Assembly: GCA_022839045.1 (NCBI GenBank)
Contig: JALHDI010000082.1
Span: forward strand, 1-17,637
DNA: 17,637 nt
From: Sporomusaceae bacterium
GTDB lineage: Bacteria; Bacillota_C; Negativicutes; Sporomusales_B; UBA7701
Reading direction: 5' to 3'
Part shown: piece by piece, positions 5,568-16,460 of the stretch
Layout of the letters: each line of letters starts with the position of its first letter
How positions within the stretch are numbered: the stretch's first letter is position 1
The notes under the pieces: model-generated
The model's database searches: none
Seen by the model: only the letters and a program-made list of their open reading frames with translations
What the model was told of the DNA's origin: nothing
Position numbers and translations under genes: made by a program

Positions 5568-5689
5568 GGCCGTTCAGAAGCGCCCAGATGCAAGGCGTAC
5601 CGGAGGACGGATGCGAAGGCAGTACTGCGGGAAGTACGGCGAGCGTCCGTCCGAGGAACAACGAAGCAGATGGGCGCTTATCAACGGCC
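5568..5689 (+). repeat. Interspersed structured repeat, copy A (122 bp)
   Basis: It begins GGCCGTTCAGAAGCGCCCA and ends TGGGCGCTTATCAACGGCC. The two 24-base ends form an imperfect terminal inverted repeat with two small internal loops. Inside, GGACGGATGC (5605-5614) pairs with GCGTCCGTCC (5643-5652), and the tip GTACT/AGTAC (5622-5626 with 5633-5637) forms a small loop, so the whole element can fold as one long hairpin. Related copies are at 10055-10125 (same orientation) and 12580-12702 (inverted). The right end overlaps the last two codons and stop of tldD. A separate hairpin (GAACGGCC/GGCCGTTC, 5555-5575) uses its left end. No coding capacity is supported. Confidence 0.85.
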
Positions 5690-7075
5690 GGTATGGTCGG
5701 TGCCGCCGACGACGATCTCCGGTATCCTGATCGTCGGCTGCGCGTCCGACACCGGCGCTCCCTGGCCGTCCTTGCCGCAGGTGCCGATCGAGAAGCCCAA
5801 ATCGCTGCCCACCATGTCGATCTGGCGCAGCACTTCCGGGCCGTTGCCGGTGAGGGTCGCGCCCCGCACGGCGTGGGCCACCTTCCCGTCCCTGATGAGG
5901 TAGCCTTCGGCGACGTCGAAGACAAAATCGCCGTTGACGGTGTTGACCTGGCCGCCCCCCATCTTCCTGACCAGCAGGCCGTTCTTGACCGAACCGATGA
6001 CGGTGGCCGGGTCTTGCTTGCCGGCGGCTATATAGGTGTTCCGCATGCGGGGGATGGGCTTGTGCTCGAAGGACTCCCGCCGGCCGTTGCCGGTGTGGTC
6101 GGCCTTGTCGCGCCCGGCCGTCAGGTAGTCGTACATGAAGCCCTTGAGGATGCCGTCTGCGATAAGGACGGTTTTCTGGGCAGGGAAGCCTTCGTCGTCG
6201 AAGCGCAGTGTCCCGTAGCGGCGGGGCATGGTGCCGTCGTCGACCACGGTGACGTCGCGGGAGGCCACCTGCTCCCCCCGGCGGCCGGCGTAAACCGACA
6301 GCCCTTTCTGGACCAGGTCGGCTTCCAGGCCGTGGCCACACGCTTCGTGAACCATGGTGCCGCCGGCGGCGCCCGCCATGACGACCGGCATCCTGCCGGC
6401 GGGGGCGGGTTTGGCCTCGAGCGCGGCTATCGCCCGGCGGGCCGCTTCGCGGGCCATTTTTTCGCAGGCGTCGCGCTTCGCAAGCTCGAAGCCCTGCGTA
6501 CCGCCGATGGCTTCGAAGCCGGTCTGGATCTGCCCGTCGCCGCCGGCGACGGCGTTTACCGACAGCCTGGTCCGCACCCGGCGGTCCTCGACCAGCCGGC
6601 CGAGCGAGTTGGCGATGGTGACGTCCTGAATAACGTCCCCGTACACGACCATCACCTGCTTGATCCGCCCGTCGACCTCGCGGGCCGCCTCGTCGGCGGC
6701 GGCCACGACCGCCACCTTGTCGTCGATGGAGACGGTGTCGGGCATGACGGCGATATCCAACTCGACCGTCGGTTTGACCGCCTTGAGGTCGATGCTGACG
6801 TCCCGCGCCGAAATCTTGGCGGCCCGGCTGGCGACGTCGGCGGCCTTGACGAGTTCCTCGGCGGTGATCTTGTTGGTGTAGGCGTATGCCGTGGTATCGC
6901 CGGAAATCACCCGCACGCCGGCGCCGCAGTCGGTGCCGGTCTTGACGCGCTCGATCCTGTTGTCTTCGCAGGACACCATGGTGGTGGCCCGGTTTTCCAC
7001 GAATATGTCGGCGAAATCGCCGCCGTGCCGCAAGGCTGCGGTCAAAACGTCGCCGAGCACCCTCCGGTCAAGCAT
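5681..7075 (-). CDS. tldD: TldD/PmbA-family metalloprotease, 464 aa
   Basis: TldD normally forms a heterodimer with TldE/PmbA that degrades unfolded peptides and matures some ribosomal peptides. The zinc site is visible as HEACGH (residues 243-248, an HExxxH form), with a likely third ligand C433 in GTCGKDGQ. The N-terminal domain (ADIFVENRATTMVSCEDNRI, from residue 22) and the C-terminal IPEIVVGGTDHTG match the family, and length is close to the usual 460-480. The ATG at 7075 follows a GGGGGAGA site. It stands alone, 92 bases after aroB, with no tldE partner in the window. The final codons GGC CGT and the TGA stop are supplied by an interspersed repeat (copy A), so the original C-terminus may have been altered by its insertion. 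Confidence 0.93.
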   Translation of the reverse strand: MLDRRVLGDVLTAALRHGGDFADIFVENRATTMVSCEDNRIERVKTGTDCGAGVRVISGDTTAYAYTNKITAEELVKAADVASRAAKISARDVSIDLKAVKPTVELDIAVMPDTVSIDDKVAVVAAADEAAREVDGRIKQVMVVYGDVIQDVTIANSLGRLVEDRRVRTRLSVNAVAGGDGQIQTGFEAIGGTQGFELAKRDACEKMAREAARRAIAALEAKPAPAGRMPVVMAGAAGGTMVHEACGHGLEADLVQKGLSVYAGRRGEQVASRDVTVVDDGTMPRRYGTLRFDDEGFPAQKTVLIADGILKGFMYDYLTAGRDKADHTGNGRRESFEHKPIPRMRNTYIAAGKQDPATVIGSVKNGLLVRKMGGGQVNTVNGDFVFDVAEGYLIRDGKVAHAVRGATLTGNGPEVLRQIDMVGSDLGFSIGTCGKDGQGAPVSDAQPTIRIPEIVVGGTDHTGR

Positions 7076-10054: not shown

Positions 10055-10125
10055 GGCCGTTCAGAAATCCCCAGATGCAAGGCGCCCTGAGGAGCAACGC
10101 CGCAGATGGGGGTTTATCAACGGCC
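10055..10125 (+). repeat. Interspersed structured repeat, copy B (71 bp, lacks the inner arm)
   Basis: It has the same 24-base ends as copies A and C (GGCCGTTCAGAAATCCCCA at left, TGGGGGTTTATCAACGGCC at right) and the same GAGGAGCAACG segment, but the internal hairpin arm of about 50 bases is absent. The stem bases differ from copy A on both sides in ways that keep pairing: G-C becomes A-T, G-C becomes C-G, and C-G becomes T-G. It starts one base downstream of the pilO stop codon and precedes the operon terminator. Confidence 0.85.
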
Positions 10126-10126
10126 G

Positions 10127-10675
10127 TTACTTTTTAACGCTGTAGATTACCACCTGCAACTTCGCCTCCAGCCCGCCGCCCGGCTTCATGTTCATCGTCA
10201 GGGAATTCACGGAATTGAAGCGCGGCGCGTCTTCAAGCTGTTTGAGAAAGCCGACCGTCTGGAAAAAGTCGCCTCTGACGAGGATGTCGAGCGGCGTTTC
10301 CTGGTAGTTGTTCCGGCTCACGACCTGGGCCGGCTTGATGTGCATAATCTGGACGCCGCTGGCGCGGGCCGCCTTCTCGACCGCGACGAGGAAATCGCTA
10401 ACGCCGGGGGTCTCGGGCAGCATCCGGTCGACGACCCGCCGCCGGGCGTCAAGCTCGGCCATATGCTTGGCGGGATCGGGATGGGCGAGCACATGGGCTT
10501 CGATAGTATCCACCTGCAGCTTCTCGTTCCGGTAGCGGCCGTCAAGTTCGGCGAGGCGGTGCCGCTGGGGCTGGAAGACGAAGAACCAGGCCACCACGGC
10601 GGCCAGCAAAGTAACGATCGCGAACAGGATCAGCTTATGTTTTAGGGAGAGTTCTTTAGGCAGCCTGATCGCCAC
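10127..10675 (-). CDS. pilO: Type IV pilus alignment protein PilO, 182 aa
   Basis: PilO forms an inner-membrane alignment complex with PilN and PilM, linking the pilus motor to the outer part of the machine. It has a short cytoplasmic N-terminus, one membrane segment (LILFAIVTLLAAVVAWFFVF, about residues 15-34), a coiled-coil stretch (RLAELDGRYRNEKLQ) and a ferredoxin-like periplasmic domain with the family-typical LPETPGVSDFL and GDFFQTVGFLKQLEDAPR. The GTG start at 10675 is placed by AAGGGGAGG, which is the end of pilN itself; only two bases separate the pilN stop from this start. It is the last gene of the unit; pilP and pilQ are not found after it. Confidence 0.9.
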   Translation of the reverse strand: MAIRLPKELSLKHKLILFAIVTLLAAVVAWFFVFQPQRHRLAELDGRYRNEKLQVDTIEAHVLAHPDPAKHMAELDARRRVVDRMLPETPGVSDFLVAVEKAARASGVQIMHIKPAQVVSRNNYQETPLDILVRGDFFQTVGFLKQLEDAPRFNSVNSLTMNMKPGGGLEAKLQVVIYSVKK

Positions 10676-12579: not shown

Positions 12580-12702
12580 GGCCGTTGATAAGCGCCCATC
12601 TGCTTTGTTGCTCCTCGGATGGCCCACTTGACGTACGCAACCAAGTACGCCTTCGCGGACCATCCTGCGGTGCGCCGCGCATCTGGGCACTTCTGAACGG
12701 CC
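12580..12702 (-). repeat. Interspersed structured repeat, copy C (123 bp, inverted)
   Basis: Read on the minus strand it begins GGCCGTTCAGAAGTGCCCA and ends TGGGCGCTTATCAACGGCC, matching copies A and B at both ends and at GAGGAGCAAC. Its internal arm differs in sequence from copy A but keeps its pairing: GGATGGTCC (12665-12657) with GGGCCATCC (12625-12617), with a CGTAC/GTACG tip. It lies between the pilD terminator and comFB, with its edge 24 bases upstream of the comFB start, so it would be transcribed in the comFB leader if the promoter lies above it. Confidence 0.85.
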
Positions 12703-15367: not shown

Positions 15368-16460
15368 CTATCCATTAAGAAGCCTGGCCAATGTTTCCGG
15401 GTCGCTTGCCCGCGCCAGCGCCTCGTCGGTGCCGACCAGGCCGCGGCGGCAGAGGTCGCGCAGGGCGTTGTCCATCGTCTGCATGCCGTTCTTGGCGCCC
15501 GTCTGGATGACGGAAGGTATCTGGTGGGTCTTGCCTTCGCGGATGATGTTGCGCACCGCCGGGGTGGCCAGGAGGATTTCGAGGGCCGCCACCCGGCCGC
15601 CGCCGTCGCGGCGAGGCAGGAGCTGCTGGGCGATGATGCCCTGGAGGGTGAGCGACAGCTGGACGCGGATCTGCTGCTGCTGGTAGGGCGGGAAGGCATC
15701 GATGATGCGGTCGATGGTCTGGGCGGCGTCGCCGGTGTGGAGGGTGGCCAGCACGAGGTGGCCGGTCTCGGCGGCGGTGATGGCGGTGGCGATCGTTTCC
15801 GGGTCGCGCATCTCGCCGACGAGGACGACGTCGGGGTCTTCGCGGAGGGCCGCCCGCAGGGCGGCGGACGACGTCGGGGTCTTCGCGGAGGGCCGCCCGC
15901 AGGGCGGCGGCGAAGGAATGGGTGTCGGCGTGGATCTCGCGCTGGTTGATGATGCTGCGGTCGTGCCGGTGGAGGTATTCGATCGGGTCCTCGAGGGTGA
16001 CGACGTGGCAGGCCCGCTCGCGGTTGACGAGATCAATCATGGCCGCCAGGGTGGTGGACTTGCCGCTGCCGGTGGGGCCGGTGACGAGCACCAGGCCGCG
16101 AGGCTTGCGGGCGAGGGTTTTGACGGTGTCGGGGTGTCCCAGCTCGTCCAGCGTCGGCACCTGCTCGGCGACGATGCGGACGACGATGGCGACGGCGCCC
16201 CGCTGGCGGAAGGCGTTGACGCGGAAACGGCTCAAGCCGGGAATGGCGTAGGAAAAGTCGACTTCGCCCCGGTCGTCGAAGACGGCGCGGTGGCTCTCGG
16301 CGGCGATGGCCGCGAACAGCGCGACGGTGTCGGCGGGACAGAGGACCGGCCGGTCGATGCGGACGAGGTCGCCGTCGATTCTGAGGACGGGCGGGATGCC
16401 GACGGTTATATGCAGGTCGGAGGCTTTGCGGGCCACCGCTTCGCGCAGCAGGGATTCCAT
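15368..16460 (-). pseudogene. pilT: Twitching ATPase PilT, frame broken by a 43-bp tandem duplication
   Basis: PilT is the hexameric ATPase that retracts type IV pili. The first frame (ATG 16460, site GGAGGTAACGC) encodes the N-terminal domain (LLREAVARKASDLHITVGIP, 4-23), Walker A GPTGSGKS (128-135), the Asp box LEDPIEYL (157-164) and reads LREDPDVV up to residue 198. There a perfect 43-bp tandem repeat shifts the frame, and the original frame then encodes arginine/proline-rich nonsense to 15375. The rest of PilT (LVGEMRDPETIATAI, the His box GHLVLATLHT, and a C-terminal domain) continues in another frame to a stop at 15368. Removing one 43-bp unit gives an uninterrupted 349-codon gene, the normal PilT length. 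As written, the product lacks Walker B and His box and should be inactive. Either a genuine, possibly reversible mutation or an assembly error. Confidence 0.85.
15823..15910. repeat. 43-bp perfect tandem duplication inside pilT
   Basis: Two adjacent copies with a 43-base period (about 15824-15866 and 15867-15909, matching one more base on each side) have no differences. Each contains a perfect 7-bp hairpin, GCCGCCC-GCA-GGGCGGC (15849-15865 and 15892-15908), which could stall replication and promote slippage. Because 43 is not a multiple of three, gain or loss of a unit switches the pilT frame. Confidence 0.95.

Follow-up and report, generated by a model that had tools for sequence, protein, structure and literature searches.

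Modular hairpin repeats with strand-specific covariation recur in Selenomonadales-type genomes

The question raised by the stretch of DNA analysed here (17,637 nt, in the following "the window") is why it contains three related palindromes and whether their fold has been selected. An initial annotation had located these copies, had described paired changes in their stems, and had placed all of them at boundaries between transcription units. The three copies were confirmed. Copy A is a full hairpin element of 122 nt on the plus strand (5568-5689; 108.4 bits, E 1.4e-24), copy B is a short form of 71 nt without the inner hairpin, also on the plus strand (10055-10125; 81.3 bits, E 1.1e-17), and copy C is a full element of 123 nt (12580-12702; 109.1 bits, E 9.4e-25) whose canonical strand is the minus strand; copies A and C belong to the 60 copies of the covariance model used and copy B is outside it, and these E values apply to copies that had been picked for folding or matching. 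On the canonical strand all three read GGCCGTT-CAG-AANNNCCCA-GA-TGC ... GCA-GA-TGGGNNNTT-ATC-AACGGCC. In copy A, the left outer arm, GGCCGTT-CAG-AAGCGCCCA-GA-TGC, occupies positions 5568-5591 (plus strand; delimited by sequence, inverted ends and RNA fold) and the right outer arm, GCA-GA-TGGGCGCTT-ATC-AACGGCC, positions 5666-5689 (plus strand; sequence and inverted ends). The changes that had been described between copies A and B in the outer stem (G-C to A-T, C-G to T-G and G-C to C-G) and between copies A and C in the inner arms (C-G to T-A and A-T to T-G) are present in the sequence.

For the same preselected copies, RNA folding of the canonical strand (GGCCGTTCAGAA...TTATCAACGGCC) gave z values of -8.6 (A), -5.3 (B) and -7.0 (C). 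The opposite strand folds more weakly, but still folds (z = -7.1, -4.0 and -4.4, respectively), and native folding was reached by 0 of 200 shuffles in each of the six strand/copy cases. The 60-copy covariance model, which includes A and C, recovered all three copies at E <= 1.1e-17 in a 583-kb search, and the reversed right-arm pattern, used as a control, had 0 matches in four genomes. Together these results indicate that the window copies are not due to chance. No Rfam 15 model matched the window copies, and none matched members in 14 related loci up to E 0.1; searches of plasmids, phages and IMG/VR with a window copy produced no match.

All 17 genes called in the window, by a custom script, are on the minus strand, and each of the seven submitted to Pfam has a family match. 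A PmbA/TldD gene (5681-7075, minus strand; gene calls and Pfam) runs at its 3' end into copy A, which provides its TGA stop codon (5681-5683, minus strand). Copy B abuts the stop codon of a PilO gene (10127-10675, minus strand; gene calls and Pfam), the TAA at 10127-10129 (minus strand) lying one base beyond the copy. Copy C is flanked by co-directional ComFB and type IV leader peptidase genes, and its canonical strand is sense to both. Placement at gene ends thus holds for A and B, but "boundaries between transcription units" is not borne out, since every gene points the same way and copy C lies between two co-directional ones. At 15823-15908 of the window, a pilT-like gene (Pfam: T2SSE) contains 43 bp that are exactly duplicated in tandem. 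As 43 is not a multiple of 3, the duplication breaks the reading frame; an assembly error is possible.

The annotation had proposed a covariance-model search of related genomes, and this revealed many more than three copies. A right-arm scan of a species-genome collection found 73 stretches, all but four of them in the Selenomonadales MAGs SL1-B47, D110_maxbin.017 and D180_maxbin.015. Of the other four, two are from Anaerospora hongkongensis, one is from an Oscillospiraceae MAG, where the match lies inside a gene and looks like a chance match, and one is from a Sphingobacterium MAG. The contig of the latter (L037) carries a Selenomonadales-type element at 2262-2382 and is probably mis-binned. 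One of the SL1-B47 stretches, L011, shows synteny with the window (85-89% identity). At E <= 0.001 there are at least 150 copies in genome G001, 122 in G002, 139 in G003 and 31 in Anaerospora hongkongensis; G025, an assembly of at least two contigs with a main contig of 4.36 Mb, has 109 copies at E <= 1e-5, and G012 has 103. Within one Selenomonadales-type order, 24 of 28 genomes contain family matches and four contain none, and four genomes have from 109 to at least 150 copies; a single order therefore includes genomes with no copy and genomes with at least 150. These counts come from relatives of the source genome. Across 398 sampled genomes of the phylum, with stricter filters and nine candidates scored per genome, 19 matched at E <= 1e-5, namely G001 and 18 genomes outside the 28 of the order. 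The nine distant members inspected, one of which (L101) is strongly diverged, have other end sequences but keep the architecture: they have complementary outer ends and a central hairpin, together with AGAT.C.AGG-like and CAAC-like segments and an arm resembling GCAGAT. A distant member was also present on one IMG/VR contig.

For the analyses below, two sets of elements were used. The MAG loci had been found by the exact right-arm pattern; the 583-kb search yielded 203 rows, of which 122 elements (MAG loci plus window) were analysed, the rest being opposite-strand rows and a few weak ones. G025 was searched by the covariance model and not by the exact pattern. Of its 109 copies, the 102 on contig C1 were kept, 57 of which fall in the 20 stretches analysed (L111-L130), and the seven on C2 were used only in the arm-partner count.

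The copies are frequently found at gene 3' ends, where most of them run antisense to the gene with the abutting stop. Genes were called on both sides of 110 of the 122 elements of the first set and of 54 of the 57 G025 elements. In canonical orientation, the flanking genes of the 110 intergenic copies were (-,-) in 58 cases, (+,+) in 20, (+,-) in 20 and (-,+) in 12, and those of the 54 G025 copies were (-,-) in 35, (+,+) in 5, (+,-) in 10 and (-,+) in 4; elements inside genes numbered 6/122 and 2/57. The right end was within 20 nt of an antisense stop codon in 56/78 copies of the first set (uniform placement: mean 23.4, maximum 36) and in 33/43 copies of G025 (34/45 before filtering; uniform mean 11.9, maximum 23), where uniform placement used the same gaps and only copies having an antisense gene there were counted. 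A sense stop was at most 20 nt from the left end in 11/40 and 4/15 copies, respectively. The TGA stop codon comes from the element itself in 20 copies (offset -9). The strand of the copies also followed local GC skew (80/107 in the first set, 47/54 in G025). Replication strand was considered as the cause of orientation and rejected, since the copies follow both skew and gene direction and the disagreeing cases divide about half and half; replichore by itself accounts for 69/102 copies of G025. As a separate observation, the coding strands in L111-L130 of G025 are C-rich at fourfold sites (skew -0.35 and -0.33), so that the G-rich strand is usually the template.

The excess of right ends near antisense stops over uniform placement is what would be expected of a 3'-end element that works for the host, the hairpin protecting, processing or terminating transcripts or acting as an antisense structured RNA. 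The plain form of this idea, the mRNA 3'-end stabiliser that the annotation had listed, is weakened: as most copies are antisense to the abutting gene, the mRNA of that gene usually carries the other, weaker-folding strand. In addition, no T run follows either end in the position frequencies of 130 flanks, and no terminator-like site coincides with the window copies, the two that were found being 50-65 bases off. Position frequencies of 130 copies likewise showed no shared tetranucleotide beside the ends, the ends themselves being read by eye.

Comparison of elements with each other, and of the same sites between species, bears further on this point. The element is a modular hairpin of 52-233 nt (n=179), consisting of an outer stem with conserved internal loops, a core belonging to one of several classes, and optional insert modules. 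A search for six insert modules in the 179 elements found 141 without any and 38 with one or two. Another 29 module matches lie outside the listed elements; the clear ones are in longer or truncated family members and a few look like coding coincidences. In L066, at about 1000-1250 on the minus strand, module M2 is nested in the hairpin of module M1. The same core can be found in different outer stems: L006 and L121 have cores identical at 82/82 positions, while 15/38 outer-arm bases differ and six positions have changed on both sides, and L016 and L072 have cores identical at 85/85 positions and four differing arm bases, all compensated.

In 49 comparisons of orthologous sites, which overlap between genome triples and are thus not independent, 37 sites had a copy in both species, 34 of these with matching orientation and 3 inverted, and the other 12 were scored as unoccupied. 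At many of the doubly occupied sites the core differs in class or length, or a module is carried; for instance, window copy B is 71 nt long and its SL1-B47 counterpart at the orthologous site 196 nt. An inverted case is L029:5227 versus L049:6919, the same address in two species with elements of 119 and 233 nt. Related species therefore usually have the element at the same addresses, often with different cores and modules. Twelve sites were inspected by eye (11 of the 12 scored as unoccupied plus one more, the twelfth being the reverse view of an occupied pair): seven had a decayed, short or 3' remnant and five had none that could be seen, and 0 of the 12 was a clean empty site.

Conservation at these sites can be read in two ways. 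In favour of a host-functional 3'-end element, identity in 24 of the 34 same-orientation pairs is 90.6% for stem columns and 97.5% for internal loops, against 80.2% for fourfold sites of the surrounding genes; these 24, however, had been chosen for having at least 29/38 arm matches. When all 34 pairs are taken together, about 80% of the arm bases are identical (1037/1292), as at the fourfold sites, so constraint at fixed sites is not seen for the whole set, and purifying selection at orthologous sites was rejected as a general statement, holding just for the 24 pairs picked for arm similarity. Three orthologous pairs (L006/L118, L071/L124 and L030/L113) are 98-99% identical between species that differ more in the 600-nt flanks (83-93% identity); constraint is one candidate explanation, and conversion or recent transfer are others. 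Decayed and truncated copies also occur, which counts against a host function. Overall, we regard a host-functional 3'-end element as possible but doubtful.

The exchanged interiors suggest another, similarly tentative account, namely cassette exchange: outer hairpins would sit at fixed addresses behind stop codons, and folded cores and modules, perhaps even nested in one another, would be moved between them by something that recognises the single-strand fold of one strand.

Covariation analysis addressed selection on the fold. In 60 distinct copies, 97.0% of the cells of 30 stem pairs are paired, and 17/30 pairs have changed on both sides. The covariation score was 0.218, compared with 0.094 for shuffled copies (0/500 reached the native value) and 0.02-0.06 for slid partners, and RNAalifold reported double changes in 16/29 pairs. 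The differences between copies thus do covary, as the paired changes in the window had led the annotation to propose. Non-canonical pairs are informative about the strand. The outer stems of 148 distinct elements (at least 60 nt long, at least 14/19 outer pairs formed) contain 149 G.T and 30 A.C pairs, versus 220 and 108 when right arms were re-dealt between elements, a procedure that preserves column composition; since many copies inherit the same column variants, the events counted are not independent of each other. A.C was observed 4 times in the variable columns 12-16, versus 35.8 expected (minimum of 27 in 500 re-deals), an approximately ninefold purge, whereas G.T was not purged (94 versus 101.5 expected). 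Half of the A.C pairs (15/30) fall in one column (24). In the G025 copies, found by the model alone, G.T was depleted too, but less than A.C (56 and 17, versus 86.1 and 47.8 expected). The G.T:A.C ratio was similar for both orientations to genes (sense 20:3, antisense 81:17) and for both signs of local GC skew (119:24 and 30:6), so that local mutation bias does not explain it. Finally, in the 24 same-orientation orthologous pairs with at least 29/38 arm bases alike, 26 of the columns that differ had gone from Watson-Crick to G.T and 1 to A.C, 20 had become a different Watson-Crick pair and 9 a mismatch, and 4 had changed in other ways. Together, these results show that the fold is kept on one strand by covariation.

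Two alternatives are confronted by this strand specificity. Arm-to-arm template switching in long hairpins is an established mechanism that yields double changes without any function, and neutral quasi-palindrome correction of this kind would mimic compensation without selection. It would, however, treat G.T and A.C equally, and it removes mismatches, while the internal loops CAG/ATC and GA/GA stay mismatched in 116/148 and 117/148 elements, respectively; we consider it improbable. A double-stranded or cruciform DNA site for a host protein, of the BIME or gyrase-like kind, would agree with the conserved inverted ends, the high copy number and the intergenic placement. As a cruciform folds both strands, though, each G.T on one strand corresponds to an A.C on the opposite one, and purging should be equal for the two, which is not what was observed, and such a site is also an unlikely explanation. 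Because a cruciform, a duplex site and arm-to-arm template switching would all treat the two mispairs alike, the stronger purge of A.C argues for a single strand, RNA or ssDNA, as the selected form. Of the "selected RNA or cruciform fold" proposed initially, the single strand is favoured over the cruciform.

If the family spread through a folded single strand, some agent would have acted on it. None of the three candidate partner families tracks copy number or occurs in every high-copy genome, and all three were rejected. Y1 (RAYT) transposase genes are absent from G001, G002 and G003; there are 7 in G025 and 3 each in G006 and G012, and G026 has a single match, which contains stops. No RVT_1 was found in G003, G006, G025 or G026; G001 has 2, G002 has 1 and G012 has 3. 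For IS110 there was no match in G001 or G006, 1-2 each in G002, G003, G025 and G026, and 7 in G012. G012, with its 103 copies, has genes of all three families. The RRXRR domain (IscB; a test for HEARO) was found in 0/28 genomes, and likewise in none of the control genomes. In 1.1 Mb there was no autonomous copy and no unpaired arm pair 330-4500 nt apart that could enclose a gene. Exact matches of 3-9 nt that could be target duplications were seen in 0-1 of 128 copies, and TA on both sides in 2/128. An apparent two-base duplication (29/128 versus 11.1) was rejected, as 23 of the 29 are the self-complementary GC/GC, i.e. a longer stem. With no mobilising gene, no target duplication and no clean empty site, recent transposition is not demonstrated. 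A MITE, also among the annotation's candidates, would be marked by a target-site duplication and by a partner transposase with shared ends; neither was seen, Y1 and IS110 being the transposase families covered.

Truncation of the copies is one-sided. In G025, 13/55 right arms have no evident left partner (14 by coordinates, one of which was set aside because it has the same bases as a left-arm match); 11 of these are truncated at the left, no partner being seen within 280 nt, and two have a left end with an internal deletion. By contrast, 2/51 left arms lack a partner, one having a degenerate right end and one being a coincidence inside a gene. Thus 11/55 right arms are 5'-truncated and 0/51 left arms 3'-truncated (Fisher p 0.0006). 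This asymmetry would suit a SINE-like retroposon copied from canonical-strand RNA, an account that we judge very improbable, since RVT_1 is absent from G025, G003 and G026, and since deletion with a protected right end explains the truncation equally well: four orthologous sites have a full or longer copy in one species and only a 3' remnant in the other (three of the four being short matches judged by eye), and the retained end is the one near the stop codon, which selection would protect.

How does the family compare with known repeats? ERIC elements carry internal insertions, REPs are hairpins with conserved mismatches near stop codons, and BOX elements are small repeats with optional internal segments. 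ERIC (IRU) is a 127-bp palindrome with many intergenic copies and a stem-loop RNA (PMC2229807), and YPAL (RU-2) is a 168-bp intergenic palindrome of Yersinia without TA termini and with target duplications of 3-26 bp (PMC2229807). The present family is like ERIC in its similar length, palindromic structure, many intergenic copies, a strand able to form a stem-loop RNA, and internal insertions. It differs in that ERIC has TA ends and a TA duplication, as against TA on both sides in 2/128 copies here, and in that strand-specific covariation, several insert modules and core exchange were found here. Among 20,395 E. coli records, blastn (E 0.01) gave no match to copy A; identity with ERIC is thus ruled out by sequence as well as by the ends. 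Set beside its description, YPAL is similar as an intergenic palindromic repeat without TA termini, but it duplicates 3-26 bp of target, whereas none of 3-9 nt is apparent here. The REP/REPIN elements share with the present ones a hairpin with conserved mismatches near stop codons; the present ones are much longer and have no GTAG or CGTC tag at the hairpin foot. The annotation's REP-like candidate with a RAYT partner found no support, and identity with REP/RAYT systems was rejected, as Y1 genes are absent from three high-copy genomes (G001-G003) and the tetranucleotide tag is missing. The Correia (NEMIS) elements occur as 107- and 155-bp forms with an optional internal segment (PMC2229807). 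By description, they and BOX resemble the present family as small repeats with optional internal segments; the present family differs in lacking a TA duplication. Geobacter and Pelobacter have intergenic multicopy families, some of them palindromic (PMC2996986, PMC2700814, PMC3543383); compared by description only, these palindromic families may include relatives. No published description of the hairpin family was found in the literature searched, a scope outside which most subscription journals and all preprints lay, and text searches with core strings returned only papers unrelated by title and abstract. The features found (high copy number, intergenic location, a long hairpin, no gene of its own, and module-bearing copies of up to 233 nt) are those of the ERIC/YPAL-like class. 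Our best reading is that the family is new in sequence and architecture and ERIC/YPAL-like in kind; the structured family suspected initially is thus new in the former respect and of a familiar type in the latter.

We favour, at roughly even confidence, the view that these are non-autonomous ERIC/YPAL-like hairpin repeats that spread via a single-stranded fold and are now exchanging cores, and an old repeat family of the ERIC/YPAL kind is the most economical account. The family would have spread as a parasitic or semi-parasitic element, its folded single strand (RNA or ssDNA) serving as substrate of some agent. The surviving copies would be those that landed behind stop codons, and they would now evolve in concert, recombination swapping cores inside resident outer stems. 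An effect of the copies on the adjacent transcript is possible. Several results count against this explanation. The searches described above gave no mobilising gene, no target duplication and no clean empty site, and in G025 G.T is depleted as well as A.C, if less so. Moreover, in 69/102 G025 copies it is the leading-strand template that folds, and ssDNA elements of the lagging-strand-template kind show the opposite strand preference. Taken as a whole, the interpretation in the initial annotation is partly supported.

Small palindromic repeats have been known for decades, whereas what moves or keeps them is mostly not known. In the present family, strand-specific covariation identifies the folding strand, exchange can be followed at orthologous addresses whose interiors differ, and the search for an agent is narrowed, as each of the three usual partner families is missing from one or another high-copy genome. 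The finding adds to Selenomonadales-type genomes an unnamed structured family that recurs every few tens of kilobases and supplies some of their genes with stop codons.
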